The position numbers were made by a program, and so were the translations under genes. This document shows positions 38,406 through 64,000 of a stretch of DNA of 64,000 bases, in pieces (within the stretch, counting starts at the first letter, position 1; every line of letters starts with the position of its first letter). The DNA is from Siphonodentalium dalli. Taxonomy: Eukaryota; Mollusca; Scaphopoda; Gadilida; Siphonodentaliidae. The stretch is from assembly GCA_032622095.1 (NCBI GenBank), contig CP136064.1, positions 217,138,205 to 217,202,204 of the forward strand, written 5' to 3'. The notes under the pieces were generated by a model. That model ran no database searches and was not told the DNA's origin. It worked only from the letters and a program-made list of their open reading frames with translations.

Positions 38406-38616
38406 CAGTAATGCCCTAAATAATCGACTCCGTAACCACAGAATAATTATGTGTAATTTCAGGATTTAGTCGGAAATATGACTTGTTGCCATTCATGGGA
38501 AAACTCTCGGTGAGAGCTTTCCGATGAATGGCAACAAATCATATTTCAGACTAAATCCTGAAAAATTACCCATAATTCTGCTGTGGTTAAGGAGTCGATT
38601 ATTTAGGGCATTACTG
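38406..38616. mobile_element. CAGTAATGCCC palindromic MITE, TA target
   Basis: A 211-bp almost perfect palindrome. The ends CAGTAATGCCCTAAATAA are inverted and flanked by TA, the pattern of Tc1/mariner/pogo-type elements. The centre is GAGAGCTTTCCGATGAATGG and its inverse. Confidence 0.9.
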
Positions 38617-38710
38617 TAAGACTTAATTTAGGAAAACAATTATCACATCACTGATCGACGGTTTACAATCTCAGTCCATTGTGACGAAAACTATACACTC
38701 TTCTTCTGAC

Positions 38711-39521: not shown

Positions 39522-39645
39522 TTGTGAGCAGTTTCAGTGACAATGGCACAACCTTATCCAGGCGGTGGACCCCCTCCCCCAGGCATGCAGCCTGTCACCG
39601 GTCAACCCATGCCTGGGCAGCCAATGCCTGGGCAACCAATGCCTG
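39522..39645 (+). CDS. Scramblase exon 1 (coding from 39543)
   Basis: A TTTTTTGCAG acceptor ends at 39,521 and the ATG is at 39,543. It encodes 34 residues, [14 protein letters not shown] followed by three near-repeats of GQPMP, then a GTAAGT donor in phase 1. Proline-rich N-termini are usual in PLSCRs and bind SH3/WW partners in characterised members. Confidence 0.88.
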
Positions 39646-42600: not shown

Positions 42601-45600
42601 TTAGGTTCAATAAAGTGTTCCAACGCGCCTCCAGTGAAAGAGAAGCTTGACCAATCCATTGCTAATATAGAAATGAGAATGTGTTCAAGCCCGCGAATAC
42701 CAGAAAGTAACAAGAAACATGTATTTACCAGTCATTTTTGACGGGCAATCCCCTAGTCTATAATATATTTTGGAATTTCTGTCTGTGTGTATGTACATGT
42801 ATGTGTTTTATAGACTCGAAAACTGCTTGACCGATCCGGCTCAAATTTCATATGTAGGCCTACCTTGCTCATATACGCTCATATAGGCATGTTTCTGGAC
42901 CGATATTTTCAACGTTGTTTGCTCAGTATTTGTTCAATCCCTAAATAGCCCGGCCGAAGTCGGGCACATCAGCTAGTATATAATATTTAGCAACTTTCAC
43001 TTTAGGAGTCATTGCATTGGTTGGTTTTTTTGAAAAATTTTACCAACTTAAGTAAATGTTTATAATTGTTCGTGGTTGAGACTATGTTATATTTTGTTAT
43101 TGGTTTGTTCGTCCGTCCGTTTTCTTTTGGTTTCCGGCTAATAACTTTAGATAGTCTCAACTGAATGGAAAGAAATTTGGTATGCGGGTTTACTAGCACA
43201 AAATACAGATAAAGTTCGATTCAGGTTCCACCTGCCAAGTTTCACCAGACTTTTGGCCCTTTTAGTTGGAATTTGCACTCAATTTTCCTTTCTGGATGAT
43301 AATTTTCATAAGTCTAAACTGAATGGAATGATAGTTGGTATGTGAGTTTACTAGCACATCATGCATGTCAAGTATGAATTTGGGTTCCACCTGCCAATTT
43401 TTACCAGAGTTATGGCCCTTTGTTGGAATATCGGAATGTTTTGGCAGTCGCTAGCGGTTATCTTGTTCTAAAATGGTATTGGCGTGGCTGGAATTTGCTG
43501 AAATATTAGGCCAAATAAAAAGTATTATTTGAATCTCAGACACCACCGCATTGAAATAATTGGCCCGCGTTGGACATTTTTAAATACAAATTAAATTTTG
43601 TTTTCAAAATTATTTTGGTATGTTTTTACCAACATGTCCATATGTATTGAGCATTAATTGCAAAATACATGAACTCTTAGCATATCTCTGTATAATGTGT
43701 GAAGATTGACTATCATGTATACATACAGTGACATAGAACATTAAGTAGATGACTAGTAGACTACATTGAAGAATATGATTAGCTGATCATCATAGTCTGG
43801 TGTACTAATTGTAACTCCAGAACAATTTGAAAGGCACAAGAGGAAATTTAGGATCGCATGTTATAATGGAGAGGTGTCAATCTATAGACAAGGGAGCTAT
43901 CAAATCAAATAATTTTTTTTAAATAAAGTATTCCCTCCCTCATTGATTCAGAAAAAAATTTGTCTGAGACTCAAATATTTGTTTGTTTTTGGCCTTATTT
44001 GAATGTTACATTATATCAGTGTGCCAAGTGCCTCGGTACCCACTTGTCAGTTTGATTCACTAAAATAAGTACATGGTATGTCTTTAAATAATAACTTTAT
44101 TTTCTGTATCCTTTTCAGCCATTAGTGGTTTCGAGACCAACAACAAATATGAAATCAGAAACGTCATGGGACAAAGGGTGTATTATGCTGCTGAAGGTAT
44201 GTTCAAAATACAAATTTCACAACTAACCAAACATACAGTAATGTACTAAGTAATCGGCTCCTTAACAACAGCAGAATTATGGGTAACTTTTCAGGATTTA
44301 GTCGGAAATATGGCTTGTTGCCATTCATTGGAAAGCTCTCGGGGAGAGCTCTCCGATGAATGGCAACAAGCCATATTTCCGACTAAATCCTGAAAAGTTA
44401 CCCATTATTCTGCTGTGGTTAAGGAGTCGATTACTTAGGGCATTACTGAAAATAATATTTCAAGCCCACCTAATTACTCCCTGCAGGTAGCAAAATAACA
44501 CTCTCCGAAAATGTGGCTGGTTAAGGTGCCAGTTGGAAAGTGTTGAAACCAATGTGTAATCAAAACTGTTACAGTGATTTGTCAACAAACAACACTAATC
44601 ATATTGTTAGTTCAGATATTTTAGTCTGAATATGATTTCTTTTTCTATGCTTTGACATTTTCCAATGTTTACCGTCAAGTTTTTATTAAACTTTGCTATC
44701 TTATGGGACTTTAATAGGTAATTCCGCTGTAATAGTAATGTTTACATAACAACGGTTTTGATGTGCAAAATCTCATTATTGAAGAGTTATTAATAATGAA
44801 AATAAGAACAAATTCAATACATTTTTTCATGTACTTGTTGATAATAGTTATTTGCAGACTTGTATGTTATATTTCATGAACCCACTTTGAAGGTCTTAGC
44901 TCCCTTTAAAGCTAGTCATTTTATTTCTCTTGTCAACAGACACATGATATCTCTACCTGTTAAACAGTCTTTTGACTTCTCTTATCGACAGACACATGAT
45001 ATCTCTACCTGTTAAACTGTATTTTGATATGCTAAGCAGTAGTTTGATTTCTCTTTTCGACAGACACGTGCTGTTGTACGAGAAATTGTTGTGGTTCTTC
45101 ACGACCGTTTGACATTAAAATCCTCGACAACACTTCCAAAGAAGTGATTCATCTATCGCGACCTCTGAGATGCAGCACATGTTGGTGTCCATGTTGTCTT
45201 CAGGTTAGTATTTCTTTAACCCTTTAATTTACTAATTACTGAATACACAGTTGGGAATCACGTGGTTTTGAGGTTGGTGAGTACCACGCATTCAAAATGT
45301 GCAAACGCACAAACAAATAATATATGATGAACTGACACAAAACATAGCAGTTTGACTGTTACGAGCATATGCAAGTTTATTTTTGAAACAAGATGATACC
45401 TTATTTGTTCGGAAATACTTAGTGATTTTATATAACATTCTGACCAAAGTTGCCAATCGGAGGGTGTGTGGAATACACCAGTCCATACATCTTGGAGAAT
45501 CCTTCGACTGACAACTTTGGTCAGAATGTTAGAGCAAACAAATATGAATTTGGACATAAATGAGGTATCAGCTTATTTGAAAAATGCTATAGCATCTGCT

Positions 45601-48600
45601 CATAGCTGTCAAAATAATATGTCATATGTCATATCTTAGCTTATTACCTTTTTTCCTCGCGTCTGGTCGCGTTTTAGATCGCTTTGGCCATTTTGAATGC
45701 GTGATACTCATCAACTCGAAACCATGTGGATTCCCCACCTTGGAATACATTCTTCCAATAATTTATAAAAAGAATGTATTGGAATGGTTTATTATTCATT
45801 TGGAGGGATGTTTTGATAGTACAAGTGCTGCGACATTGGATTCATATCCAGTCACATGGAGGGAATGTTCAAATAATAATTGGGAGTGTGCTTCAAGTCT
45901 GAGTTTAGTGTGCCTGTCATTTGCAGATTGAGGTCCCTAGAAGGTGAATTTAGTGTCGCTATCCCACACAGCGGGCTAGCATCACTAAATTTACCCTCTG
46001 GGGACCTCATTCTGCTTAAGCCTAATCTTCTCTGGAAAGTTTCATTATTATCAAATTTCTATAAAAACTTCTTCGCATAGATTCTATTTCTTTTTTAGTT
46101 TAGTTTCTCTATATCCCAAAATTGGCAGACGACACATTGCATAATCGAGGTTCGCAATGGGTGTACATCACAATATTCACCATTTGGGAACTTCAATCTG
46201 AGTCTACGACTCCCATAGCAGATTAGGTCGTGCAGAATGAGGTCCCCCAGAGGGTGAACTTGGTGATGCTAGCTCACTATGCGGGATAGCATCACTAAAT
46301 TCACCCTCTGGGGACGACATTCTGCAAATGACAGGCACACTAAACTCAGGCTTTGTGGTGTGATTGGCCATTTTTTCATCGCCTAAAAGGCTCTCCAGGC
46401 ATTCAACATGTGAATTGAGAGTTATTGAAAGTTTGCCGATCAAATAATAAATAACAACTTGTGCAAATGATATCATACAGCATATATCAACTAAAATCAT
46501 ATCTGGTTCTGTGTGTTTCCAAGTTTTACTCATTATGGTATTTACCAGAACATTTATGCAAAGTGCGACAACTAATGTTTTCTTTTGTTTTAATGCCAAG
46601 AAAATAATGTAAAGCGACTTGAGTGTCACTATTGTTGCGCATCATTTAATGAGGAAATATGCAGCGCACCACAATTTATCATAGTCAGCTTATTAACAAA
46701 AATTGAGTCATTCCTGTCGGTTCAGCATGCAGAATCTCGTCACTGGAGAGTTATTGATAATGAAAATAAGAACAAATTTCTTCTAATTTTTCATGTTCTT
46801 TTTGGTAGTAACCATTAGCAAATGGTATGAGTTATAAATTTTACTGACACGAATGCTTTTCGTAGCTTTAAAATTACTGGATCATTAGCCTTTATGAGAC
46901 AATACATGCACTTAATTTTATCTGTATATTTTTTTATAATCCACCATTTTATTTCAACTTGAAATCATGTGATTCCTGACCATGAATTACTGAAATTGCT
47001 ATATAAATTTCACCTATGTAAATGATGACATCATGAAATTCTATAGGAAATGTAATTCTAGAATAGTTCTAACATATGAGACCCAAACTAGCTATCATCC
47101 AGTGCAGGTGATAAGTTGATTATTTAGCTTATCCACTGATTTCTAATAATCCACAGAAAGTCCAGGTGGAAGCTCCTCCAGGTAATATCGTTGGCTATGT
47201 GAAGCAGACGTGGAGTCTGTGTGTACCAAAGTTTGCCATCCAGAATGCCGAGGGAGAAACGCAACTGAGGATAGAAGGACCATGTTGTCAGCTGGCAATG
47301 TGTGGTGATATCGAGTTTGACGTGAGTTACTTTGTTTAATCTCTACCTGTTGAACGTGATGTGACTTGATAGCAGGTAGCAGCCAATTAGCCTTTTTATT
47401 AGGGCCATGCAAATTAATTTGATTCTATGGGATTCAGAATCTTTCATTCGCTTCAATTCAATTCAAAATCGATTGTCCTGATTTGGATCTTATCAATTCT
47501 TTTCCATCAGGTGAATTTGCATTGTTTTTATTTTGTGGGAAGTGAATTCTTGATACTAACGAATGATTGCACATACATGATTGTGACAAATCATCTGAAG
47601 ATCTTAACCCAAGCAAAATCAGTTACACTTTATTTTAATAAAATAATTATTGGTGTACCAAATACCTAATTACCTAAGTTATCATACTTAGCAAGCAACT
47701 TACGACAATTCATACCGACCTATGCTTTACTAAGACAGTCAGGCTTCTAATTCCTAATGGAATATGTTGTATATAATTGTCATCTGGGAATTCAAAAGTT
47801 AAGTGTGCCTTTAATTACAGGTGATGTCTGAAGATGGTAATACATATAAGATATCTTTGAACCTATAATAGATTTTAATTCTTAATTACAGGTGACATCT
47901 GAAGATGGTAATACGCATGTTGGCAGGATTTCTAAGCAATGGTCTGGACTAGCTAAGGAGTTATTTACTGATGCAGATAACTTTGGTATTTCATTTCCAC
48001 TTGACATGGATGTACGGACGAAGGCTGTTATGTTGGGAGCTACGTTCTTGATTGTAAGTAACACTATTTTTACATTCAAGCTAACATTTAATCATGGTTT
48101 CTTTTATTTCCAGATAACTTCATGAGTAAACAGAAGTAGAATTGGAATTGATGTTGGACCAGTTCCGGGTCCTCTGAGTATTCTTATATATATTTACATT
48201 TACATGATTATCTTTCTCATCTTTTAGTTTGTTCTGCATCATATCAACAATGATCACAAAAACATGCAAAATTATGGTCTGTTGTGAAAATAGTCCTTGT
48301 TAAAAATCAACATCTTACGCAGAATTGTTCTAATACTATGATGTCTGTAAATTTGTTAGGCAATATTTTTTATAAAACTGGGATAATTAAAGATCAGATC
48401 TACCTTAATTGTATTAATATTTGCGCAGTACTATTTTTCACTCTGTGTGAGTTTGTGCATGTTTATGTCTAAATTCAAATCTGACATTAATATTTTGGGA
48501 AAAGTCTTGTATGTGATGAGACATCAAAGATTATATCATGATTTACTATTTCTCTCATGAAAAGATTATATCATGATTTACCATATCTCTCATGCACAAG

Positions 48601-51600
48601 GCTGTTCCAATTAGCATACAGTCGGTATACACAAATTGTCTACTCAGTGCCTCTCTTCGTTATATAATAAATTCATCACCCATAGATCCTGTTATTTCCC
48701 CGTTGATTCGCAGAGCTCAGAATCGTAATATTTTGAGTTAATTTTAAATTCTCACACTGGGGATGCACAAAAAATGGTATTACACAAATTAAACACAAGT
48801 AAAGATACGCAATGCTTTTTGTATATGGTTGCATTTTATCTGGATTTTTTCCTAGTCGGAAGTAGATTGATAGAAATAACAGATATCGGATATAGCTTCA
48901 CATGTTAGGTTCTCTTCGGATTCTCTTATTTCATTAGACCAAGTCTTCTTGGTCCACAACAGCTTGGAATATCGGTTGGAATGATGCTGTTTGGACTGAG
49001 TTCTCCTCGTTGCTCTTCTATAACGGACTTTCATTCAAAAGACAACTACATGTATACATGGAGCCTGGGCATTCACATGAACCCCTGAATGTGATTAATC
49101 ATCTAACATGTCTGCGATTAATCTGTCTTCAAAATGATATATCATTTCCCATGATAGAAAAAGGCATAGTGATAATATGATTGTTTAATGTATTGTTTAT
49201 ATGCATTTTCGCGACAAATCAAACTTCTCTGGAAAACAAGGCTTTGTTAGCTTTTAAATTTCGCTGCTTTGACATTTAATGGACATCTGATATATGCATG
49301 TTTGATTAAATCAAAATATCAGCTTGGGAAAGGCTGACCTCTATGTTCAAGGCTTCTATTTGACCTAATCCGAAGACAAACAAGATAACGATTATGGGCG
49401 TAAAGTCCGTTATAGAAGAGTATTGGGATAGGACTCAGTCCAAAACCGCATCAACTCAACCAATATCACAAGCTGTTTTGGACCGAGAATACTTGGTCTA
49501 TTATTTCATTTGTGATTGAATTATTAAAGTTAGGTCTTTTGTTTAAAATTCCTCCTGTTATATGAATTACACTGTGTGTTTTTTGTTTTAACATTTTTGT
49601 TTTTCAACGATCTAAAACAATTTTTGTTTCCACCAGTTACACTGGGATTGGTTGAAGCATTGAATCTGTGCACTTAAAATTTAGCTTGAGGTGAATAATA
49701 TCAATAACTCACTCCAACAATTACATTTTTGGAATGACAGGGTGAACAAGTGAATCACAACATGCAGATCAGCACGTGAAGTTTTAATTCACCACAATGT
49801 TATCTAAAGAAGACATTGATAGACATAACATTTTTGGATTCTGAATAAATTGAGCTGCATTTGTTCCTTGTACCTCAGCTGACAAATAGTACCTTCTCTC
49901 GGAATAGATAAACAACACCACAATGCACACATAATGCTTACCTCTGCATTTGTGCTTGCATCTCTCTGCAAGGTATCATTTAGGGTTTTTGCAGAATTAT
50001 TGGTGCCCAAATTCAAACCCTAGATAATCTTTTGTAGTGAACATTTAATATAACATGTTTGCAGCATTCTAAAGTTTTTAAATGACATGAAACAAATATT
50101 CCAGAGACTTCTTAAAGAAGTGTAGATTATTATGATGTATGATCAGGCTTTAAAATATTTGAATAAATAAATCTGTTTGAAATATATTAGAATCCACTGA
50201 CCTCAGAGAACTATATGATGCTTGCAGGGTTCCTGTCTATCTATTTTATATAAATACTCATTACTTTTCTTCCCGAATTTGAGATAAGTTGAAAAATGCC
50301 TTAAATGCAATTTTCTCCCTATGTTGATTAATTCATTCTGGTTGTGTTAAAGGCCCACTTAATTTTCGAGTCACCAATTATTTTTTTATACTGCCTTGAT
50401 ATACGGTTTTAATAACAATCTATGCCATAAAATATGATTAAAATACTATAATTCATCACCATTTGAAACGTCTGTGTCTCAGAGATAGAAAACAACTGAA
50501 ATCATAGACAGATTTCCCCTTTATGGCTCCCAGAATGCAATAGAATTAAAATTTAAAATGTATTTTTAATTGAAGGCGAATAACTCTATCTTTAGGTAAC
50601 TCAACGAAAACAACATGTTCACAGTTTATTACACCGGATAAGTTGAAAATACATTGTTTTGCAGCTTCCTCTTACAAATTATATTATAATTGATCTGGTG
50701 TTCACAAATTAAGTGGTCTTTTAAACCTATTCATCATGTGAAGAAACCACCACTGGAGGTTTAAGCACCACTTAATAAAATTGATGATATTGGAACCCTG
50801 AATTAAATTTAATGAGTGTCAGTTCGCAATAGAGAATCTTTGTTCAGAATATTTTTTTTTAAGTTTTAAGGCTTGATTAACATTTTCTTTTTTAAATATT
50901 TCCTCTAGTTATCAACTTCTGATAAAATATTTTTAGGATTTCATGTATTATGATGATACTGATCTAAAGGATAAAGATAAGAAAGATAAGGATTAAAATA
51001 AGGATAATTCACAGATCTTTTAGAAATCATCGTAGGTTGGTGGTGCCCCGTGTCAATGCATGGTTTTTTGCATTAATTGTCAGTGTCTGAATGGGAAATG
51101 TGTTTCAAAGATAGAATTTCTTTCAATTTTCAGAAACTTTCTGTCATATTCAGGAGTGAAATTTTCAAGAAAATATTTTATTGGTGTATGATGTGAAATT
51201 CTATCTTTGAGAATAGCTGACGTTTTTGTTTGCTCAGTCTAGTTTGATTTACAGTAACCGAGATTCTGCAGAATCTCTCAAACCCCTTGAACATCTGACA
51301 AAAAAGTTTAACACGACTGCTCTCTACATGGTAACAAACTCTGATTTTTTTGTTAGTTATGGTCTTGGTAGTTTGATGTCAACTCATGTAGTCAGAAGAT
51401 ACGGTACTCACATTAATGTTGTCTTCAAATATTTTTCATTCAGAGAAGCTGTTTCTGAGTGTTAGACTGGCCCTCGTCACTCAGTACTTCAATATTATTT
51501 CATAATATCAATGCTTATGGTCACAAAAACAAACTAATTTGAACCAAATTGAGGATAATGATCCCAGACTTCATTCTACTGGTCAATCAATGAATATATA

Positions 51601-54600
51601 AGGCTATTTTTAATATATACAGTCAAATTTTGTTAAGTCGAATGTCTGTAACTCGAAAAACCTGCTTAAGTCGAAGCAGTGGCTCGGCCCTGGCTAAATG
51701 TCTGCATAAAGTCATCAAACTTAGCATGGATAAGACGTATGATGGTAAATCATTATTCCCGGTTAAGACGAAACAAAATCTGGGCCCTCCAGGTAGTTTA
51801 CAGTTGTAATTAATATGGATTAGTCAAAATGCAGTCAGCAACCTTACATGCCAGGATACTGCTCATGGGTGTTAATATCAATTAAAACATTCAGATAGTC
51901 ACACACAGTCCCCTTGTTTATCAATTAACTACGTTTTCTGATCATATTTTGACTAATTACAATACCTGCGGATTGGTGTTATAATGTAATTATCTATTTA
52001 GCAAAGTGTTGAAACATCGACTTGATTGTTTCAAAAAGCATCGAACTGTGGCTGTATATTATATGGTAAATCAACAAAGTACTGCATCAAGCACAATTTG
52101 GCAGGTACCAGTAGTAAAACTGTTCAATTATTTCATTCCTGATTCCTTCATTATAATAAGTCTAACGTACTTCCTTTGCACGTGCAATTATGCATTCATG
52201 TATGTACATGCCAAACTGACTTGAAGTCCTTGTTTTCATTTTCAATGGTAAAATTACATCAACAAGTTGACGAACGGGTTTCTAAATGGGATGTGTCTTT
52301 TGCAATCGGAGGGGGCAACTGGATAACTCAAAATAAATCATTGGTCCCAATCGACATCGACTTAATGAAGTTTGAATGTATATATTTATTAATTTTTTCG
52401 TGATTTTCTTTGCATATTTGGCCAAAACAGTCAAATTTGAGATTATTATTTAGACAGGCTCTTGTCCTCATACGATCACTCAGATATAAGTCACTCAGTG
52501 ACAGTGGAGTTGATTCAGTTCATATTTATTGTTTAGCAAAATTTTTAATCCACCAAGAAATTTGATTATTTTCAATTAGATGTCTGGATTTCGCAAGCTT
52601 CTTGTTAGCACACCACTGCTCTCGGCATGAAAAAAATTGCTTCCATGATGTACCCTTGCAGCAACATGTTATGTGATATATTATGAACTGATATATAGCT
52701 TCTATATTCTGTCATCATGTGGCTTCTGATAGGCTCCAGATGTGCACCTAAACATCACAGGCAGAGAGTTGTTTCTTGGTGCATGTATGGCTACATGTGG
52801 AAAGAAAATAAGTTACTTGCTTATTTACTAGAACACTAATTAACTTTCAGTTTTTTGGGGCTTCGTTAATATAACTTCTCAGCCTTCTCAGTTGTACACT
52901 CGGCTGGTTGGATTTCATTCAGTGGTTTTGGTTAGTAGTTTTATTCAGGTATAAAAATAGTTCGGAGCTTGAATTGGGTCTCCACTGGCTTGACATTCTC
53001 TTAAAGTCTCTATTTTACATCTGTTACAATTTCTGATGTGAAAAGCACACAGCGATCCATTTTGGAGTGGCATATGTGGTTGCTTTCCTCGGTCATTTCC
53101 ATTCTAACCATATCATTGTCTCATCAAATCTACTTCTCATTTTCACTCACAAATCACAGTGAACGTTTGGGTATGGTTAGTATTCTCAATGGTACAGTAA
53201 TGCCCTAAATAATCAACTCCTTAACCTCAGCAGAATTGTGGGTAACTTTCCAGGATTTAGTCGGAAATATGGCTTGTTGCCATTCATTGGAAAGCTCTCA
53301 GTGAGAGCTTTCCGATGAATGGCAACAAGCCATATTTCCGACTAAATCCTGAAAAGTTACCCATAATTCTGCTGAGGTTAAGGAGTCAATTATTTAGGGC
53401 ATTTAATACTGTAATATGATTGTGATGAAAACATGGTTTCTATTGGATTATAGAATGACAGTAAATGCTAGATCTCATCTAAACAATTTTCTGAGTTTTA
53501 TAAACATTTCAGGATTATATATTCTTTGAAAACTCTAAGGAGGCAAAACGTGTTAAAAAACAGATGAAAGAAGTGAACAAAAGATAAGGTAGTAAACCTG
53601 GCGATTTTGCATTGAGTCCAGAGTTTGTGGCATGATCACCACAAATATATCAAATCATATTCAATATGTTGGTGCAATACGGCATGAGTTGATGTTCAAT
53701 GTGTAGTGCTTCTTTGAATGCACCAAATGTTTCACAGCCAATCTATGTAAATTTAAAACTCATTTTGATGTAAGTTAAACATGTTATTAAATAGGTTCCA
53801 GGTTATTAATTTCTTGAAATTGGAATTTGTTCAAATTCTTTTCTGTCATTGAACGACAAATATGGACTATAAATTTGGTGAATTACTGAATTGTATTGGA
53901 TTGTTGGATAAGGGATTAATACACACTTGTCTGCTTCCGTCCCCCGTCTCCTGCGTTATGATGCAGTCACGAACCCCTGTTTGTTCAACAAATAGAGTAG
54001 AGACTAGATACATCTAGCAGCTAAATAAGAGTAGACTTGATTCATCTAGCTGCATGAAGGTTGATTAGGCTTACCTGTGCATGAACTATTCAACTAACAT
54101 GATTTTGAAGTCTGCTTTTGATCAATTTGCAAGTTTCAACAACACAACTCGCTGATTTCCGCAAAGGTAGTCCGGACCCTGAATGTGACAGACGCTTTGA
54201 GTAAGTTTGAGTCTAGAGTCACGTGTCATTTGATGAGATGTAGCGAATAGATCGATTCTCTGATCTGCTGTGAAAATAAGAGCAAACATTCATCATAATC
54301 ATTGTGATCATCGCGGTTGAGTTTCATTCAAAGATGGTGTATGGATTCATTAGATGAAAATACTATTTTAAGTTCTAATCTATGTTCAGCCTGATGCTGG
54401 TTAGCTAAATGAGTTATTACACGTTCATCCTCATCCATACTCCATTATTAATAGCATTATCATCATATATGTGCAGAAGTTCCAATGATTTTTATATGCC
54501 TGTTTTTTAAACGGAACAGGTTATGTTATTGGTTAATCCGTCCGTCCATCTGTTCATTCGGTTTTTTTTTATTTCCGGATGATAACTTTAGTAAGTCTGA

Positions 54601-57600
54601 ACTGAATGGAATGAAATTTGTTATTTGGCTTTACTAGCACAAAATACAGGTCAGGTTCAAATTCAGATTACGCCCATCAATTTTCACCAGAGTTACGGCC
54701 CTTTTTGTTGGAATTTGTACTCAATTTTCATTTCTCGTTGATAACGTTAGTAAATCTGAACTGAATGGAATGAAATTTGGTATGTGAGTTTACTAGCACA
54801 AAATACAGGTCAAGTTCGAATTTGAGTTTTGCCAGAATTGTACTTGTCGACTTGCCATTCATCGGAAAGCTCTCAGTGAGACTAAATCCTGAAAAGTTAC
54901 CCATAATTCTGCTATGGTTAAAGAGTCGATTATTTAGGGCATTACTGTATAGTTCTTAGCTGGTCGTTAAAATCACTGTATAGAATGATATGGATATTGT
55001 TGTTTGGCTACCGGCTTCTACTTCCAGAATTTCTATTATCAAGTTGGTTCTTTCCTGTTTCTGCTAGACATTTATTGGTATCACATCGGGAACAATTTCT
55101 CATAATTAAATGATTGCTGTCTCCGAACAAGAGTCTTCGGTTCAGCTGATACAGTAATGCCCGAAGTATATGACCCTTTATCCACAGCAGAATTATGGGT
55201 AACTTTTCAGAATTTAGTCGGAAATAGGGCTTGTTGCCATTCATCGGAAAGCTCTCACCGAGAATTTTCCCATGAATGACAGCAAGCCATATTTCGCCGA
55301 ATAAATCCTGAAAAAGTTTCCATAATTCGGCTGTGGTTTAGGGGTCGATTATTTAGGACATTACTGTAATTGCCTTATTATTTGGTAAATGTTTGAATGT
55401 TTCCATGACTGTTCCATGAACTATACTTGTCACACAATTTCTCATATTTGCACACTTTGAAATGTCTTACTGTTTATTTAGACCAAGTTTCTACCAGCAG
55501 GGTCATCCGCCATGTTAGATAGAGATGGAGACGAATTTCCAACATGTCCCTCTTAACACACATTAATTCCCTGCCCATGGGTGAGAGTGACTTAACCCTT
55601 TCAGTGCCAGGTCCGATTTTTGTATCAACCCATATACCCTGTGCCAATGCATTCTCTTATATATGCGAGTCGACCATAGGTCGCCTCGCATATATAAGAG
55701 AATGCATTGGCCTAACAATTTTTCATCATTTGTTATTATTTTTTACAATTTTAATAATTTTTTCTTATATTCTTTAACAGACTTATTTTGTAGGTTTAGT
55801 GCCAGGGAATCTTACGTTTTTCATGGGCATCAAAATTATTACTATGAATACTTGGTGATAGTTTTGAGTTATAACATGCCCCTAAGGTTTTATCCAGTTT
55901 GTTTTTAAATTTGCTATAGCATGCTTAAGCATACCCAAAAAAATCATAAAAAATTAATAAATAATTTTTTTTTTTTTTTTTTAATTTTTTTGTATTTTTT
56001 AGGGCCGATTTTACAGACCGTAAATTAGGGCCGATGAGATGAGATCAGCCCCTGGCACTGAAAGGGTTAATGTCCCAATTTAGCCGTGATACTGGTATCA
56101 CATAAAAAACATTTTTAACACAATTATTTAACCTTTGCATGTCTCACTAAATATGATGTGCATTTGGCACCCAGTATAAAATTCATAGAAAGACTTTGAT
56201 CATTGATATAATGGTAAAAACCAAGGACCAGTCTGGAGGTTTCAAAATTTTGAGAAGTAACTTCTCTCTATTTATTTGGGTAGAAGTGGGCTGTTATCAG
56301 GAGGAAGTCATAAAGGCTGATGTTCAAATAACACTTCAACATGAGACCTCTTATGGTCCATTAATTATTATGCAGTATAAAGACCCATTTATTATCATAT
56401 GTTAGCTTATCATGCTTTATTTGTTCAGTTACAATGATATGAGAACATGAATGATGGAGAGAACTAAGAACAATTCTTCTTCCCGGCAAAATAATTAAGT
56501 GTGTCCTAAAAGTTTATCCCGGAAAAAATAAAAAACGTGTATGTGGTCAGGAAGTGGAAAATGTTATGTAAGTGCCTAGCGCTTGATGCCAAATTCTCTT
56601 CTTCCCTCTCTGACTCCTTCCTCACATATGTGTATAATATTTTTGTAAATTCATGAATGATTCTTGGGAAAGATTTAATAATGTTTACACTAAAATAATA
56701 GGGGAAAGTTGAAATATCAAGGCTGGTCCCTGTTTAAACAAAATGTTAGCTGCCCTTGGCTCAATCTTACTCCCATTGTCTCCGAAAATAATATTTATTT
56801 TATTAAATGCAGATTATTTACATGTGTATAGGAATTATGTTATTTGAGCTTATTCATTAATCTATTGAAATACATCGATGGAATACAAACAAAATAATTG
56901 TGTGTTCCAACAAGTATTCATAGCATATAAAGGCACAGTAATGCCCTAAATAATCAACTCCTAAACCACAGCAGAATTATGGGTAATTTTTCAGGATTTA
57001 GTCGGAAATATGGCGTGTTGCCATTCATCGGAAAGCTCTCACTGAGAGCTTTCCAATGAATGGCAACAAGCCATATTTCCGACTAAATCCTGAAAAGTTA
57101 CCCATAATTCTGCTGTGATTAAGGAGCCGATTATTTAGTGCATTACTGAATGGCATTTCGTCTTTGCCTGCATCTATTGTGACCGACATTCCTGGGACGA
57201 AACTTGGCCAACTATTCTTTATGATTATCCATTGTTACACTAATTTTCAGGATTTCATGTTCTTTGAAAACAATAAGGACAAAACAAGTAAAGAAATTGA
57301 GAAGGTCATAAAGCATTAAGGTATCAAGGGCGCACAATGTTGTGTCTGATGCAGCATTTTGTGGCATGTGATATTTTCCACAAATATTTCAGTCATTTCT
57401 CATGTAAACTTGGGCATGAGTTGATATTGTTTGGTGATTTGGCTCTGTCACTTTTTTCTTAAAATAAAAATGGTAAAGAAATCACTAAATATAACTCTTG
57501 TTCAAACTTTACCCTAGCGCGTCAGCTCCCCTATAGACATATTATATGCAGTAAGAATACAGCGCTGTCTGCATAAGTATGAACATACTACGTACTCTCA

Positions 57601-60600
57601 GATAGGGGTACGTTAATTGTCCCCTGTTACACTAGCAGTCAGCCATTATTCACAACTGAATCTCAGAAATTATTGCATCGGATCCATTCTATCTCAACGT
57701 TTGAAATGATTTATGATGTTCCAGGATTGTGAATGTTAAAAGCATTTCAATAGAGTAAATTTTATAGTTTTATTCCCCATGATATTTTTCCGCTGACAAT
57801 GGCCACAACCTCAAAGGCCGAGCACATAATGTCATGACGTCATTCAGCAGTGAAGAGTTTAAACAATGTTAAAGTTAATGTTTGGTGTGTAATGAGAAGG
57901 CTGCAGGTAATATGGTATATACATGTACTTTGAAAGAGAGTTTCAATATTTTTTGTTGATATTGATTCTATAATAAGAGGTGTGTTCTAAAATTCACAAG
58001 ATCTTGTTGTGAGTCTGCATGGATATGATATGGATATGATATGGATATGATATGGATATGACTCAGTTGATTGTAATGTTCTATCAGTGCAATATTGGTT
58101 GTTATTAATTTCTCCTGTGTATTTTTGCATTGTGTTTTCATATCATTTTTCTATACATTTTTGCTTTGTCTTCAGCAATTTATCATAATATGAGAGGTTT
58201 CATTTCATTTATGATTTCATCCACTCACAATGACAAATGTTTTATTTACTAGTAATCCCAAGTTTCCTTCGACGTAAACCAGCTAGTGAAATCGGTTGAA
58301 TAATGATGTTTTAAGTCGAAGCCCCGTGTATATATTCTTCTATATCGGGGTTTATCATTGTTGACCCGCTCACCTAAAATCCCCAATAACTGTAATAAGA
58401 TGTCACAATTGTAACAGTAAAATTGCGACAGTAAACCAGTTTATTCCATAGAAAATATTATATTTGTTCTGAACTCCACAAGAGTTTACAACTGAGAGTA
58501 GTAATGTAATGTGAAAAATATATTTTTACACGTGACAAAGTTGACATAGATATGAACTCATTTGACATCGTGAAGTCACAGTGTAAAATTACGCGGCATA
58601 TTCTATGCGCAATTTAACATGGAAGTTTGATTATAATACCCGGTACATCATTTTGACTGTAAGATGTCACTCTTTCCGATGTATATAGCATCATGTATTG
58701 AATTGTAGGATATTAATAATCGATTAAAAGTGACAAAAAATCCTGCCACTGGATCTGGCGTAAAGTGTGCTAAAGAAAGAAATAAACACGGACTTTGATG
58801 TAAAACAGCATTATCTCGACCGATTTTTCACGACATAGTTTACGTCAAAGGGAACTTGGACTAATTTACTAGTAGCACATTTTCAGATATTCTAAGAAGC
58901 TGAGACTCAGATTCCGGCCTTATAGTCTCATTATCAAGTTGCTAATTTTCTGTATTTTTTTGTATGTAATTTTCAGGATTTTCAATATTTTGAGAAGAGT
59001 CGTAAAGATGATGACAAGGATATCAAACATGCACATTGAGGTAGCGGCATGGTTAATATATAAACCTTGGTGTGGTCGTCACATTCATGCATTACAGCTT
59101 AACTCCCACTTATTCATTTGATGCAGCTTAACATGGTTCACAATTCACCTGTCTATCCATGCTGTAAAAAGTATTGTCTGTAATTACGGGGCTCTTAAAT
59201 TATTCCTATAAATCATATTTGAGTTATTCCATACAATACTTATTATCTAAGATATGTTTAGTTCCATCTGCTTTCACACCAGAATTTGTCTGTGTCTGTA
59301 CTCTGCAGTTGAAATGCCTACAATTTCGGTTTTTATGGGATGTTTTTTTCAAACAGTGAATTGACATTGTATGTATTTCATGAGACTGATACCTGAAATT
59401 AACACAGAGTACTAAAACAGCTGAACAGAAGAAACATTTGAATTAACCAATCACAGCACAGGATAGTATAGTTGTCGTGAAATGTGAACTACTTTTCACT
59501 CCAACCATAACGAGAATGTGGATATATACTGATACCGGTAGCTTTGAATTTTCAGAAAACGAGGACTGTTTTTGCTAATCTACTTCAATATACCTAAATT
59601 TAGTTATACATATTCTCAAGTTATGGTTGGAAAAAATTGTCATCAATATATATATATTTGTGTCATCAACAACAAAGCAGCAATCTTTTTACACTCTGAG
59701 TACTGGACTGGCCGATCAGAGAGATGGGAGATTTCCGGATTACCCAGTGGGTCATCAGTTCTGTGATTTCTTTTCCTTGTTGAAATTGATGAAATTTCAA
59801 AAGACAAACAGCCTTTCTTATTTAGAAAAGCCCACAAATAAATATGTTGCTATTTTGGCCCTAGAATTACCCAAATTGGAATGCAGGAATTCATGGCAGC
59901 ATAAACAATGGGTCAGTTTACATCAAACTTGGGGCCAGAAAGGTACTGTGAAGAATTGATTGGCAGGAGATGTTCCCACCTCTTTTTCTTTGCCAGTCTA
60001 CACACGATCAGATTGATGATATTGTGCTTCTATGACTGATGATATAAGTTATAAGTGTATATTATTTATTTATTAATATCCACTTACTGTACAGCTCTAT
60101 CAAAGTCATAAGCAAAGCAAACAGTATTGTAGTCAGCTTGCTGCTTTGAGGTTCATTGATTAATTTGAAAGCCACACCATATTGACTTAACTGCATTGTG
60201 CTGAGAATATTTTGTTTTTACAGTTCCTGCAGTAAAGTTTTCTAAAATGAAACTTTTGCTGATAAAAGTGATACACATTTTAAATTTATTATGAAAAATC
60301 TTCAATTCTTGAATAAAATATACAGAAATATTGCATTTTTCATATTGAAGATATTCCCACACATTTTCTGAAATTCAAATGTGTTTTCACTAATAGTATA
60401 TTAATTGATAGATTGCATGAATTGGAGTCAGATTCTGGAGTGGCTAAATGATAGAATAGATCTGACCATGGGGTATGTGGTAAGTTCTTATGACATGGTC
60501 ACACTTTTTGTGTGAAATTGCTTTATTCAACAATATGAATTGATAGCTAGTTTACATATGATTCTTCAAAGAAAAACCATAAAACTCATAAATAGTTCAC

Positions 60601-63336
60601 TTTTCATGATTGCATTCCACAGTATGAAAAACAAATAATAATAATATTTGTTTTCTTTTACTAGTAACTTGCTTTTGTGAAGGTATTCAAGTGTGACCTT
60701 GTCTCGAGAATTATGCTATGTTTAATATTATGCATTAATTTGTTGATGGAATAAGACTGACATTATTGGACATTTAATATATTCACCATATTATTTTTGT
60801 TTGTTTTAATATATTCATCATATTATGTTTATTTATTTTGAACCTAATATAATCTTAATTCCTGGTTTCAGAATTTCAACTTCTCAGCTATTTTGATTTC
60901 TTTGTCAATACTCACAATTTTACTTTTTGTTATTTTGGGAGGGGTTACCTTCAGCTGATAAAATGTGCCGTGAACAAATAATTTTGATTTATTTCCTTAA
61001 TAGCTTTGCATGGAGAATGATTTATTTTTTGTGCATTTTCAATTTTGCATTTCAAATATGTCTGCATGGATAATGTATGAATTTGTCTCTATACACTCAT
61101 TTGTTAACTTACATTTCGGGATGTTTTAGGACTTTCTGTTTTTTGAAACAACCAAGGATAACGATAAGCTCGACGTCCTACCATGAATGAAAATAGCAAC
61201 TCACTGTGCTCACATAAGCTGGTAACACATCTCCCTGAAAAAAAGCATAGTTATCACTCACTATTAAATATATAATTCTTACTCCCCTTCTCTTGCAAAT
61301 CTTCTGTGGTTATTCTTGTATTTATTTGCTAGATTGAAGTCAGAAAAGTTATCTATTTTACAAGTGACTGCTTTATGATAACTCTAGCAGGACTACTCTG
61401 TCACACATTGAAGTAAGAAAACTAAGAAATTACGCTATTCTCTGCATTGTGCTAGTTATCAGATTAATTGCCTGAGCGAGCCAATAGTTACGTGGGTTAA
61501 GCTTGCCATTGAGTTATCACATGGACTATGATTTCAAGTCAACACTACATTAGATTGACCTATGTTTATAAATTCAAATGACATGCACAACTTAATGACG
61601 ATTTGGATGATCATTGCTGGGCTTAGTTAATGAAATGGTGTCTCCACCATCATGTGAAATATTTTTCTGCACTGAAACCATCCACAGGATAGTCAATTAT
61701 TGGAATTGAATCAATTGGTTGGAAATCTAATTACTGTTTTACAAAACTGTATCAAAATTAATATATACCTGGTGCTGCGGGGACACAAAAAATATAGTTA
61801 ATATGGTCGTTTTTATTTTGTATTTTTGTTTAGGTTTAATAAATTGAAATAGAACAGTGACAATCTCCATTTCCTGAATCATCAGGCTAACTACTGGTAC
61901 TCTCTAATCTCATCCATTCCTCGTGGGCCCATCATGGAAGTGAACATAAACTTGATTGAAACAGGCTATGTACTAAATCGTTGCTTTGATTCCTTTTCCC
62001 TTATTAATTTACCTCTCTAAATAGTATACATCTACCGGTATACTATGCAGAGATCTATAAGAGCATGCTAAACTTAATTGTGCTTTATAAAGTAGCGTTC
62101 AGATGACTGCTTTGCGTTAGTCTGTTGTGATGACATCATCCGTTGTCTGCATTAAACCATTCACATTTGTGTGTTATATTATAACACAGAACCTCCGATT
62201 GAAGCTATTAATTTCTATGTTGTGATAAATGCAATATTGAAAATCAACCTATCTGTTATATATTAAATCTATTTTTAATTTCAAACCTGTTAAATACCAA
62301 CAACTAAAACTAAATACAATGGAAAGTTCCATCAATTCACAGACAGCCGTCATCTTTTATCGATTGAAAACAAATAACATGATGCATGCACTTAATTACC
62401 AAATAAGGTATGCATTTTGGGTACACAACATAACGGACGCATCACAGCCACATAAAATGCCTTAGTTTTATTGTCTGTATTCCAATTTCAAGGCAACGCA
62501 ATCAACGGACTTGACTGAACACTCATGAAGTATCAACTTCATTTTATATAATTGCATGTGTCGACCTGCTGGCTTATTTAATAATACCATGCTTGAATGC
62601 TAGATTAGCTAATTGATTATTTTCAGGATTTCTTGTACTTTGAAGGAAACAGAGATGCTAACCCCATGGGTGTATAAGGTATTGGGGTTTTCATCCCGGC
62701 AGTAGATTTCTCAAATATGGTAGCACCCAATCAAGCCTGAGTTTAGTGTGCCTGTCATTTGCAGAATGAGGTCCCCATAGGGTGAATTTAGTGATTCTAT
62801 CCCGCATAGTGGGCTAGTATCACTAATTTCACCCTCTGGGCACCTCATTCTGCATGGCCTCATCTGCTATGGGAGACATAGACTCAGATTGAAGTTTCTA
62901 AATGGTGAATATTATGATGTACACCCATTGGGAGCCTTGATTATGCAATGTGTCATCTGCCATTTTGGGGATATAGAGAAACTAAACTAAAATAGATATA
63001 GAAGATATGTAAAGAAGTTTCTATAGAAATTTGATAATAAAGAAACTTTCCAGAGAAGATGAGGCTTAAGCAGAATGAGGTCCCCAGAGGGTGAATTTAG
63101 TGATGCTCGCCCGCTATGCGGGATAGCGTCACTAAATTTTACCCCTGGGGACCTCATTCTGCAAATGACAGACACACTAAACTCAGGTAGCACCCAATAA
63201 TCAATAACATATATAATAATACCATACTTGAATGCTAGAGTAGCCAATTGATTATTTTCAGGATTTTATGTTCTTTGAAGACAACACAAAGAAAGATGAT
63301 GATAAAAGCCCGCATGGTGGTGGTATGCACCACTGA
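39522..63336 (+). CDS. Phospholipid scramblase with seven candidate alternative C-terminal exons
   Basis: The constant coding exons are 39543-39645, 40767-40901, 44119-44196, 45064-45203, 47157-47321 and 47892-48053 (783 bases, 261 codons). They are followed by one of seven exons starting at 50937, 53513, 57251, 58977, 61130, 62627 or 63262. The protein (about 276-286 residues) is a PLSCR-family membrane protein that moves phospholipids between leaflets in response to calcium. Visible in order: a Pro/Gly/Met-rich N-terminus, [36 protein letters not shown], the cysteine cluster CWCPCCLQ (palmitoylation in PLSCR1), [12 protein letters not shown] (the calcium-binding loop) and the C-terminal helix [10 protein letters not shown]+DFMFFE. 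Introns are 1-5 kb and full of palindromic MITEs. An upstream 5'UTR exon is implied by an acceptor at 39,521. A downstream 3'UTR exon may lie outside the window. Confidence 0.92.
40524..40733. mobile_element. CAGTAATGCCC palindromic MITE, intron 1 of scramblase
   Basis: Full-length, TA on both sides, arms nearly identical. It ends 33 bp before exon 2, so the polypyrimidine tract follows it directly. Confidence 0.9.
40767..40901 (+). CDS. Scramblase exon 2
   Basis: A TTATTTTAG acceptor, then [11 protein letters not shown] and [20 protein letters not shown] (PLSCR1: PPGLEYLSQIDQILIHQQIE). GTAAAT donor, phase 1. The acceptor lies only 33 bp after the end of a palindromic MITE. Confidence 0.92.
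41154..41315. mobile_element. Truncated piggyBac-like element (left end)
   Basis: TTAACCCTTTCATGGCGGGA, then the CATTCTCTTATA hairpins shared with 27,452-28,165. The right end was not found. Confidence 0.7.
41340..42980. repeat. Tandem/interleaved repeat block in scramblase intron 2
   Basis: GCATTGAGTGTGGAATCGAA occurs at 41,583 and 42,072, and CAATAAAGTGTTCCAA with GAAGCTTGACCAATCC at 41,920-41,970 and 42,610-42,660, so a unit of about 500-660 bp is partly duplicated. The block ends with the CGAAGTCGGGCACATCAGCT element end at 42,955. No gene. Confidence 0.6.
43085..43440. repeat. Two tandem units of the GTTCGAATATGGG-type repeat
   Basis: Each has TTTCCGGNTRATAACTTT, CTGAATGGAA, GGTATGNGNGTTTACTAGCA and GTTCCACCTGCCAA, with a spacing of about 175 bp. 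Confidence 0.7.
44119..44196 (+). CDS. Scramblase exon 3
   Basis: TATCCTTTTCAG acceptor; [20 protein letters not shown] then VYYAAE, one of the most conserved PLSCR blocks. GTATGT donor, phase 1. A palindromic MITE begins 39 bp after the exon. Confidence 0.93.
44236..44448. mobile_element. CAGTAATGCCC-type MITE, intron 3 of scramblase
   Basis: Near-complete; left end CAGTAATGTACTAAGTAATC, right end GGGCATTACTG. It begins 39 bp after exon 3. Confidence 0.88.
44920..45063 (+). repeat. Triplicated 3' splice-site-like segment before exon 4
   Basis: TTTCTCTTGTCAACAG|ACAC ends at 44,939, TTCTCTTATCGACAG|ACAC at 44,991 and the real TTTCTCTTTTCGACAG|ACAC at 45,063. The first two are followed by CATGATATCTCTACCTGTTA. 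These are duplicated acceptors without a functional exon body. Confidence 0.8.
45064..45203 (+). CDS. Scramblase exon 4 (cysteine clusters)
   Basis: [20 protein letters not shown], then [18 protein letters not shown]. The second cysteine cluster corresponds to the palmitoylated CCCPCC of PLSCR1. The acceptor TTTTCGACAG is the third of three similar acceptor-like copies in a row. GTTAGT donor, phase 0. Confidence 0.93.
45896..46352. mobile_element. Twin-hairpin element, copy 2 (intron 4)
   Basis: The outer ends are GAGTTTAGTGTGCCTGTCAT and inverse. Two internal palindromes of TGAATTTAGTGNTGCTA type lie near the ends. The middle part is the reverse orientation of copy 3 at 62.7 kb. Confidence 0.8.
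47157..47321 (+). CDS. Scramblase exon 5
   Basis: [32 protein letters not shown], then CGDIEFD (PLSCR1: IQAPPGVPIGYVIQTWHPC and CGDVDFEI). Phase 0 at both ends; GTGAGT donor. Confidence 0.93.
47811..47850 (+). repeat. Truncated duplicate of the start of scramblase exon 6
   Basis: TTAATTACAG plus GTGATGTCTGAAGATGGTAA repeats the acceptor and first codons of exon 6, 71 bp upstream of it (VMSEDGNTY versus VTSEDGNTH). The frame then stops within a few codons and no donor follows. It is a broken partial exon copy. Confidence 0.8.
47892..48053 (+). CDS. Scramblase exon 6 (Ca2+ loop and helix)
   Basis: [38 protein letters not shown] and [11 protein letters not shown]. This holds the calcium-binding loop and most of the C-terminal transmembrane helix. 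GTAAGT donor in phase 0, so every candidate seventh exon can join in frame. Confidence 0.94.
48927..49512. mobile_element. Inverted-repeat element in scramblase intron 6
   Basis: Arms of about 110 bp (48,927-49,036 and 49,398-49,512) share TATTTCATTAGACCAAGT, GGTCCACAACAGCTTG and TCTTCTATAACGGACTTT in inverse, with about 15-20% mismatch. Confidence 0.65.
50347..50727. mobile_element. Repeat B, near-complete copy with inverted ends
   Basis: TTAAAGGCCCACTTAATTTT on the left and AAATTAAGTGGTCTTTTAAA on the right are inverted. TTAA or TTAAA may be the target site. It ends about 210 bp before alternative exon 7a. Confidence 0.65.
50937..50996 (+). CDS. Scramblase alternative C-terminal exon 7a
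   Basis: Acceptor ATATTTTTAG, then [19 protein letters not shown] and TAA. DFMYYD replaces DFMFFE and the tail is alternating Asp/Lys. Unlike most of the others, no GT donor sits at the stop; the next is about 35 bp on (ATC|GTAGGT), so this one may be a true terminal exon or be spliced differently. Confidence 0.8.
   Translation, partial: DFMYYDDTDLKDKDKKDKD
51230..53190. other. Scramblase intron between 7a and 7b, mostly unassigned
   Basis: 51,622-51,770 looks like a pogo/Tigger-type end (CAGTCAAATTTTGTTAAGTC, AACTCGAAAAACCTGC). The rest shows no gene; the short frames lack conserved features. Confidence 0.4.
53195..53411. mobile_element. CAGTAATGCCC MITE upstream of exon 7b
   Basis: Full-length palindrome with TA at both ends. 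The right tip carries a small insertion (GGCATTTAATACTG). It ends 102 bp before exon 7b. Confidence 0.9.
53513..53588 (+). CDS. Scramblase alternative C-terminal exon 7b
   Basis: Acceptor AACATTTCAG, then DYIFFEN and a strongly basic tail, [17 protein letters not shown], then TAA. The stop directly joins a donor (TAAG|GTAGTA). The 120 bp downstream resembles that after 7c (TTTGTGGCATG, CCACAAATAT, GGCATGAGTTGAT). Confidence 0.88.
54540..54955. repeat. Tandem CGAATTTGAG-type units joined to a MITE remnant
   Basis: Two units with TTTCCGGATGATAACTTT, CTGAACTGAATGGAATGAAA and CAAAATACAGGTCA, then from 54,855 the right arm of a CAGTAATGCCC MITE with part of its hairpin missing. Confidence 0.7.
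55152..55366. mobile_element. CAGTAATGCCC MITE, diverged
   Basis: TA flanks and both ends are intact; the arms carry several mismatches, so this is one of the older copies. Confidence 0.88.
55592..56070. mobile_element. 479-bp piggyBac-like non-autonomous element
   Basis: Bounded by TTAA, inverted ends TTAACCCTTTCAGTGCCAGG and inverse. A central hairpin of GCATTCTCTTATATATGCGA lies at 55,649-55,712, and a run of about 18 T near 55,965. Confidence 0.85.
56936..57148. mobile_element. CAGTAATGCCC MITE upstream of exon 7c
   Basis: Full-length palindrome, but without a clear TA pair. It ends 103 bp before exon 7c. Confidence 0.88.
57251..57320 (+). CDS. Scramblase alternative C-terminal exon 7c
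   Basis: Acceptor ACTAATTTTCAG, then [22 protein letters not shown] and TAA at a donor (TAAG|GTATCA). DFMFFE is identical to vertebrate PLSCRs. The flanking similarity to 7b shows that the two arose by duplication. Confidence 0.88.
58019..58062. repeat. 11-bp tandem repeat
   Basis: Four copies of ATGGATATGAT in a row. Confidence 0.85.
58247..58874. mobile_element. 612-bp element with 8-bp TACTAGTA flanks
   Basis: The ends CCCAAGTTTCCTTCGACGTA and the inverse of CGTCAAAGGGAACTTGG pair, and TACTAGTA occurs directly on both sides as a probable target duplication (it is also self-complementary). It ends 103 bp before exon 7d. Confidence 0.65.
58977..59040 (+). CDS. Scramblase alternative C-terminal exon 7d
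   Basis: Acceptor GTAATTTTCAG, then [20 protein letters not shown] and TGA at a donor (TGAG|GTAGCG). The tail mixes Lys, Asp and His. Confidence 0.87.
59105..61090. other. Intron between 7d and 7e
   Basis: AT-rich sequence without recognised repeats apart from short direct copies (for example ATATTCAYCATATTAT near 60,780 and 60,815). No additional DFMFFE-type exon was found here. Confidence 0.4.
61130..61221 (+). CDS. Scramblase alternative C-terminal exon 7e
   Basis: Acceptor GATGTTTTAG, then [18 protein letters not shown] and TGA (61,184-61,186). The nearest donor is 35 bases past the stop (CTG|GTAACA), used here as the tentative end. The short tail ends in Val-Leu-Pro. Confidence 0.82.
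61222..62570. other. Intron between 7e and 7f
   Basis: Unique-looking AT-rich DNA. No repeat family of the window and no further alternative exon was seen. Confidence 0.4.
62627..62678 (+). CDS. Scramblase alternative C-terminal exon 7f
   Basis: Acceptor TTATTTTCAG, then [16 protein letters not shown] and TAA at a donor (TAAG|GTATTG). It is the least charged tail. About 50 bp before and 50 bp after match the surroundings of 7g, so 7f and 7g are the youngest pair. Confidence 0.86.
62736..63187. mobile_element. Twin-hairpin element, copy 3, between exons 7f and 7g
   Basis: Ends CCTGAGTTTAGTGTGCCTGT and inverse. TAGCACCCAAT lies just before and just after it as a probable target duplication. 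Two palindromes of the TGCAGAATGAGGTCCCCA type are inside. Confidence 0.82.
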
Positions 63337-63345
63337 CCAAATAAG
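63262..63345 (+). CDS. Scramblase alternative C-terminal exon 7g
   Basis: Acceptor TTATTTTCAG, then [20 protein letters not shown] and GMHH, then TGA, with a donor nine bases on (AAG|GTAATG). The tail is Asp/Lys- then His/Gly-rich. It is the last copy in the window, 664 bp from the edge. Confidence 0.88.
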
Positions 63346-63901
63346 GTAATGGGGTTTCATCACGGCAGTAGATTTCTCAAATATGTAGCCCCCTATTATA
63401 ATCAACACCATCATCTCGAAGTTCATATTTTTTGCACTATAAGGTTCAATTCTCATCAAAGATCACGCGTGTGTTTATATGTCGCGACTTTCAAGGTGTG
63501 CGTTATCTTATGACAATGGTATTAATTGCCCTTTTTTTTTCACAATCAACCCATTCTCGTGATAGCCTCGATTGCCGGCCGTTTCTTTGCTATTCCAATC
63601 AATCAACAGGCAATCAGTGTATTCCGAATGGGGACGTTTTATGTCTGTAGACATACTTTAACCCTTATATACTAAATGTATTCTCCCACTCAGTTATAAA
63701 AATACATGCTGGAATGGTCTATTATTCATTTGGAGGGCTTTTCAGGAAAAATATGCAGATGACAGATAACACAAGTACATTTTTTCTTCAAATTTGTTAA
63801 TACAGATAATGCACTTACAGAAAGAGTTCTATTCATTCGAAGGAAATGTTCAACTTCTATGAATGATATCGTTTCGGTATCTCACCTAAATTCATACCTA
63901 C

Positions 63902-64000
63902 AATAATGCCTTTATGACCTTTAACCACAGCAAAATTATGTGAAATTTTTCAGGAATTAGTCAGAAATATGGCTTGTTGCCATTCATTGGAAAGCTCTCA
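63902..64000. mobile_element. CAGTAATGCCC-type MITE cut by the window edge
   Basis: A diverged left end (CAATAATGCCTTTATGACCT), then TTAACCACAGCAAAATTATG and the first half of the central hairpin. The other half would lie to the right. Confidence 0.8.

Follow-up and report, generated by a model that had tools for sequence, protein, structure and literature searches.

The last coding exon of a predicted phospholipid scramblase (PLSCR) gene of the scaphopod Siphonodentalium dalli is followed by homologous copies of itself, seven in all, in a 64-kb stretch of DNA (G000:C4:217138205-217202204, called the window here; the genome comprises 2.23 Gb in 9 contigs), and this tandem duplication probably gives one protein body seven selectable C termini. 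All seven exons start in phase 0 behind an AG acceptor with a D(F/Y)x(F/Y)(F/Y)(E/D) sextet and run on through a hydrophilic tail to a stop codon of their own; the sextet completes the family domain in each case, and the sextets have been kept while the flanking sequences have diverged. As we propose it, the last coding exon would have been duplicated in tandem and splicing would join exon 6, the last constant exon, to one of the copies, which would bring the aromatic/acidic sextet closing the domain together with a free tail. Since every copy is in phase 0 and has its own stop, the copy joined to exon 6 would set the C terminus, so that strict exclusion of the other copies would be unnecessary for a single product. 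From the sequence we consider it very probable that at least two copies are used, and the use of all seven appears somewhat likely.

Scramblase body and its seven endings

The constant part of the gene consists of six exons:

39543..39645, + strand, exon 1, proline-rich N terminus (as start codon we chose the ATG that precedes the proline-rich stretch)
40767..40901, + strand, exon 2
44119..44196, + strand, exon 3
45064..45203, + strand, exon 4, holding a cysteine-rich stretch
47157..47321, + strand, exon 5
47892..48053, + strand, exon 6, the last constant exon, ending in GATFLI in phase 0 and followed by gtaagt

Exons 2 to 6 have AG acceptors, and the donors of exons 1 to 6 read GTAAGT, GTAAAT, GTATGT, GTTAGT, GTGAGT and GTAAGT. 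Spliced in silico, the six exons (39543-48053) encode 261 residues free of stops, whose PF03803 match scores 274.2 bits and ends at position 214 of the 221 in the profile; judged by this whole-domain match the gene is a PLSCR with its complete body in exons 1 to 6, as the initial annotation had stated along with the phase-0 end of exon 6. We take the cysteine-rich stretch and a 14-residue segment to correspond to the palmitoylation and calcium segments of PLSCR1. Searching solved structures by sequence found no relative, the sole match being a glutaredoxin-related protein (E 0.047) that we do not count as one. Exon 6 has four matches in the genome, none of which we read as a processed copy of the gene. 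A second, truncated exon-6 start with an acceptor is seen at 47811-47843, 71 nt upstream of the segment 47882-47914, to which it is 94% identical over 33 nt.

Behind exon 6 lie the alternative terminal exons, with coordinates that include the stop:

50937-50996, + strand, exon 7a, DFMYYD and a 13-residue tail, net charge -1
53513-53587 (53588 up to the donor-like site), + strand, exon 7b, DYIFFE and an 18-residue tail containing KRVKK, net charge +6
57251-57319 (57320 up to the donor-like site), + strand, exon 7c, DFMFFE and a 16-residue tail, charge +2
58977-59039 (59040 up to the donor-like site), + strand, exon 7d, DFQYFE and a 14-residue tail, charge +1
61130-61186, + strand, exon 7e, DFLFFE and a 12-residue tail, net charge -1
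62627-62677 (62678 up to the donor-like site), + strand, exon 7f, DFLYFE and a 10-residue tail, charge 0
63262-63336, stop at 63334-63336 (63345 up to the donor-like site), + strand, exon 7g, DFMFFE and an 18-residue tail, charge -1

The acceptors, the phase and all seven sextets are as the initial annotation gave them; of its range of tail lengths, 10 to 19 residues, the lower bound is right and the upper is 18. The weight it laid on open tails does not stand, as 10 to 18 open codons are unremarkable and a tail, being defined up to the first stop, is open by definition. We have therefore withdrawn the stop-free frame 0 as evidence (over the seven tails there are 4 stops in frame 1 and 18 in frame 2), and the weight of the evidence for the array is on sextet, phase, acceptor and tail composition.

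Adding exons 7a to 7g in turn to the body raises the PF03803 match to 290.0, 287.9, 291.7, 291.1, 288.5, 289.3 and 291.4 bits, a gain of 13.7 to 17.5 bits, and extends it to profile position 220 or 221; the product with 7c (3.9e-87, 291.7 bits against a curated cut-off of 25.4) covers positions 7-221 of 221. Because the body stops at 214 and every copy carries the match to 220 or 221, the conserved end of the domain is supplied by each copy and the tails fall outside it, in agreement with the earlier view of the sextet as the end of the domain.

Chance, decay and constraint in the array

The motif is concentrated in the array. At the protein level it occurs eight times on the forward strand of the window, seven times led by AG (the place at 49289 has CT), and never on the reverse strand; at the DNA level it occurs seven times on the forward and never on the reverse strand of 48054-64000, whereas 300 dinucleotide shuffles average 0.0067 occurrences and never exceed one. 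A degenerate pattern, which 7d does not fit and which thus misses it, has eight matches in the 2.23 Gb of the genome (two for the pattern run backwards): six in the array, one in a paralogous scramblase and one on contig C9. With a weight matrix built on 13 exons (the seven of the array, each scored with itself left out, and six paralogous ones), the seven score 22.3 to 36.5 bits, while over 48054-144000, that is, the window and 80 kb beyond, the next best places on the forward strand reach 18.7 bits (at 89198) and 9.8 bits, the best on the reverse strand reaches 12.6 bits, and the maxima of 20 shuffles range from 9.5 to 17.4 bits. By their sequence the seven exons look like genuine splice-selectable endings rather than noise.

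No half-decayed copy was found by the matrix within 48054-64000, where the next best forward place has 9.8 bits, and no intact further copy downstream, whether by motif scans, strict or loose, over 40 kb or by the matrix over 80 kb. The place at 89198 (G000:C4:217227402, L007:5198), 26 kb behind 7g and outside the window, reads DFPYIKMSLFIWEAIFTFIK followed by a stop, with a good acceptor, a broken sextet (DFPYIK) and a hydrophobic tail, and is perhaps a relic eighth copy, or chance. A loose match at 69146 (EFNLLE, with a poor pyrimidine tract) was set aside.

Substitutions between the copies were counted as uncorrected proportions at synonymous (pS) and nonsynonymous (pN) sites, pooled over the 21 pairs of the seven copies, with the tails taken as codons 7-16, ungapped. 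In the sextets pS is 0.78 and pN 0.16, the latter biased downwards because the copies were recognised by their sextets; including the six paralogous exons changes the two to 88% and 15%. In the tails, which unlike the sextets were not selected by content, pS is again 0.78 and pN 0.58. The initial annotation's suggestion of selection is supported for the sextets, with this bias attached; its proposed substitution estimate, covering sextets and tails, reveals constraint in the former and no conserved sequence in the latter.

The flanks were aligned over 200 nt upstream and 250 nt downstream, with a cut-off set 6 above the highest of 60 shuffle scores. Two of 21 pairs exceed it upstream, namely 7f/7g and 7b/7c, the second via an inserted repeat only, and a single pair, 7f/7g, downstream, where 7b/7c is borderline and below the cut-off (score 33 against a shuffle maximum of 28). 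The common flanks of 7f and 7g extend over 49 nt before and 54 nt behind the exons and are about 90% identical. Introns saturated with change beside a retained sextet, acceptor and phase point to about five copy lineages (a, bc, d, e and fg), and most copies are probably old and held by selection.

Two other readings can be weighed here. That duplicated or misjoined sequence in the assembly created it is hardly credible, as the copies and introns differ throughout and even the flanks of 7f and 7g differ by some 10%. A single working last exon with six dead copies would accord with the likely dead copy that may exist at 89198, outside the window, but is improbable, since (i) pN in the sextets is far below pS, subject to the bias in how the copies were found; (ii) the family match gains from each copy; (iii) the tails of all seven are hydrophilic, in contrast to intronic frames and to the tail at 89198; and (iv) no half-decayed copies lie between the seven.

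Tail composition and paralogous genes

The tails have hydrophilicity in common, and net charges from -1 to +6. Compared with 231 AG-led reading segments from the introns, their mean Kyte-Doolittle hydropathy is -1.95 (+0.37 in the segments), hydrophobic residues make up 14% (49%) and charged residues 51% (15%), and none of 100,000 draws of seven intronic segments was as extreme. Base-shuffled stop-free tails average -1.34, from which the real tails differ (P 0.005). Of the tail bases 46% are A, and the hydropathy of the tails is -2.04 in frame 2 and -0.49 in frame 1.

With E allowed up to 10, the genome yields 33 matches to PF03803, of which 11 exceed the cut-off. We examined five places with an exon-6 counterpart or a C-terminal match, in stretches of 20 to 40 kb each. 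The paralogous genes end as follows:

C4:49.85M, - strand, gene Ca, three terminal exons (DFMYFE with tail QSQRQRR, DFMYFE with RTQNNNR and DFKYFE with RKKKRSRNRRL)
C4:49.67M, - strand, gene Cb, a close duplicate of Ca, one terminal exon found in 40 kb (DFMFYE with RSQN), the counterpart of Ca2
gene Da, one terminal exon found (DFMFFE with QQQNNNRNRHH)
G000:C4:233981001+, position 22223, gene Db, one terminal exon found (DFTFFN with FRKNKPSTSGGGGGGG, a tail ending in seven glycines)
gene on C8, no intron at the position of the terminal exon, running through as GAVFLVDFNYFEPQNNQ
gene on C1, a single open frame, intronless

Ca, Cb, Da and Db share the intron position, the phase and the kind of sextet with the array gene (the DFTFFN of Db being less canonical), and differ from it in tails rich in R, Q and N, or in G in Db, instead of K and D, and in that none of the six paralogous exons has (A/G)AG/GTA directly behind the stop. 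The architecture is not unique within the genome, Ca having three such exons. The intronless gene on C1 was considered as a retrocopy that might reveal a used exon and rejected, being a different gene that ends in LVGFNYFEKRGCCCC. Loose AG-led matches with other letters in the paralogous stretches (e.g., Ca 16823 and Db 7545) were set aside as chance, as was Db 19809 (DYLFFD, 15.3 bits), which is also present on the opposite strand at 30399.

Ca1 lies in a stretch that Cb lacks (in the alignment Ca 6260 pairs with Cb 9171, Ca 7790 with Cb 9200), and no counterpart of Ca3 was found in 40 kb of Cb. With seven exons in the window and three in Ca, terminal-exon arrays exist at two loci, and their copies come and go. 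The tails of Ca2 and Cb2 have 7 and 4 residues, between flanks that are 91% (110 nt upstream) and 98% (176 nt downstream) identical.

Counts of indels and substitutions were taken by hand from the alignments of 7f/7g and Ca2/Cb2. Between 7f and 7g the tails have five indels in 33 columns as against two in 103 flank columns (P 0.009), tail substitutions are not faster than those of the flanks (P 0.23), and for exon substitutions between Ca2 and Cb2 P is 0.03; together there is a hint of faster tail evolution.

These data bear on the main alternative, which is compatible with the anatomy: several copies would be spliced and their tails would be interchangeable, any hydrophilic cap behind the sextet being sufficient; nothing but hydrophilicity would count, and the gain or loss of a copy would make little difference. 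We regard this as a substantial possibility, though the less probable one. It would account for the lack of conserved tail sequence (pN 0.58), for the unequal tails of Ca2 and Cb2 despite their similar flanks, for the absence of Ca1 from Cb and for a possible dead eighth copy at 89198, and the excess of tail indels between 7f and 7g is expected whether tails are loosely constrained or pushed to change. Against it, five lineages have kept sextet, phase and acceptor while their introns became unalignable, which suggests use for most of their life, and the net charges differ (+6 in 7b, -1 to +2 in the others).

Predicted splicing at the array and known systems

In 7b, 7c and 7f the stop is followed directly by a donor-like AAG/GTA and in 7d by GAG/GTA, while in 7g AAG/GTA comes six bases after the stop (CCAAATAAG/GTA); 7a reads AATAAGGATAAT at the stop with no GT behind, and 7e has no donor-like motif. 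[AG]AGGTA near the stop is thus found in five of seven copies; of 992 stop triplets in introns, five have it within 18 nt (binomial P about 7e-11, or about 1e-6 if bc and fg each count once, giving three of five lineages). The initial annotation had made no mention of this motif. The chances seem about even that these five copies are internal cassettes that bear a stop and are spliced to a putative shared 3' untranslated region (3'UTR) exon. Were two cassettes included in one message, the first stop would lie some 53 to 85 nt before the last junction, as reckoned from exon lengths, a distance that reaches or exceeds the usual threshold for nonsense-mediated decay and would favour one tail per message.

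A variant, compatible with selectable C termini and in our estimate just short of an even chance, is that the copies are complete last exons, every one bringing its own 3'UTR and poly(A) site. It draws on several observations: (i) 7b and 7c are weakly alignable for about 190 nt behind the stop, in an alignment made without a shuffle control, and are not alignable upstream except in the inserted repeat; (ii) Ca2 and Cb2 differ at 4 of 176 sites within 180 nt behind the stop and at 10 of 110 upstream (P 0.02); (iii) ATTAAA occurs at +158 and +155 behind their stops; and (iv) the stops of 7a and 7e lack a donor-like site. The donor-like motif at the other five stops speaks against it, and the nearest AATAAA or ATTAAA lies 885, 199, 144, 798, 77, 359 and 1412 nt behind the stops of 7a to 7g, distances no shorter than those measured from random positions (medians 359 and 317, P 0.58), so that poly(A) signals were rejected as evidence for seven separate last exons. 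By eye, a short stem, TTTGTGG...CCACAAA, is shared behind 7b (53624-53645) and 7c (57358-57384).

Competing RNA pairing was assessed by docking 285 windows of intron 6 against selectors in the 400-nt regions of the copies, those of 7b, 7c and 7g being cut to 181, 174 and 68 nt by the removal of repeats. When at least five of seven copies had to pair, the best real window reached -17.2, short of the -18.1 of the best shuffled one; by mean energy, windows 48964 (-20.1) and 49324 (-18.6) beat the -18.4 of the shuffles. Of 200 shuffles of each window itself, those that matched it numbered, for the mean and the fifth-best energy respectively, 0 and 57 for 48964, 7 and 35 for 49324, and 5 and 3 for 50214. 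Window 48964, which pairs best with 7d and 7c, beats shuffles by the mean only and by eye falls within an inverted repeat, and 50214 and 49324 are unremarkable among 285 windows; we accept none of the three as a docking site.

Several points weigh against a duplicated last exon with seven selectable endings: (i) the sextet pN is lowered by discovery through the sextet; (ii) much of the tail hydropathy goes with the A-rich composition, as frame 2 illustrates; (iii) copies have turned over between the close paralogues Ca and Cb; (iv) there is perhaps a dead copy 26 kb behind 7g; (v) the search for competing RNA pairing gave no docking site that we would accept; and (vi) G at +5, present in five of the six donors of the constant exons, is missing from all five donor-like sites, which makes the cassette reading weak.

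Repeats occur in and around the array. A palindromic repeat of about 210 nt is present at 53188-53403, 55145-55360, 56929-57144 and 63918-64000, and near 33139-33183, 38500-38620, 40530-40740 and 44240-44450; its arms carry an acceptor-like TTTTCAG followed by GATTTAGTCGG, several copies have a short phase-0 open frame after this site that resembles the start of an array exon, and one forward copy lies 256 nt before exon 7c. Between 7f and 7g, an element with 118-nt inverted ends (62736-63187), with GTAGCACCCAAT on both sides, may be an insertion later than the duplication that gave 7f and 7g. Elsewhere in the window, frames on the reverse strand at 1668-2018 and 10330-11748 resemble, by eye, exons of an EF1A-like GTPase.

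Tandem alternative terminal exons are already known. According to PMC9013439, the Drosophila genes pip, with eight clusters, and PGRP-LC have tandemly duplicated, mutually exclusive terminal exons, and the choice in PGRP-LC is reported to involve competing RNA structures. The scramblase array resembles them in a constant 5' part that would be joined to one member of a tandem series of homologous 3' terminal units; it differs in the protein family, in a unit that is one short exon (51-84 nt) of six conserved residues and a free tail, and, from PGRP-LC, in that no convincing RNA pairing was found. Drosophila scramb1 has, according to PMC11335299, two described isoforms from two promoters that differ by a proline-rich N-terminal region, whereas the array gene varies at the C terminus. 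With mammalian PLSCRs and scramb1 it shares the whole Pfam domain, including the last columns, which the sextets fill. A literature search by title and start of abstract, with subscription papers and GenBank predicted isoforms beyond its scope, found no terminal-exon array in a scramblase, and as far as the literature was searched the arrangement is new for this family.

In PMC4725246, PLSCR scrambling in vivo is described as disputed, views of the C-terminal helix are split between a membrane-spanning segment and one that fills a Tubby-like barrel, and a block of palmitoylation sends PLSCRs to the nucleus. The tail of the array gene would protrude from the end of this helix. Tentatively, tail charge may shift residence between membrane and nucleus, with 7b (net +6, KRVKK) the most import-like. 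A fuller scheme, in which stop cassettes with their own donors, decay of double inclusion and fast-changing tails would re-address one body between membranes and nucleus, is speculative and rather unlikely as a whole. Seven tails on one body would be a natural experiment on the function of the disputed C-terminal end of PLSCRs, and the array would be a good case in which to follow the birth, keeping and loss of terminal-exon arrays.

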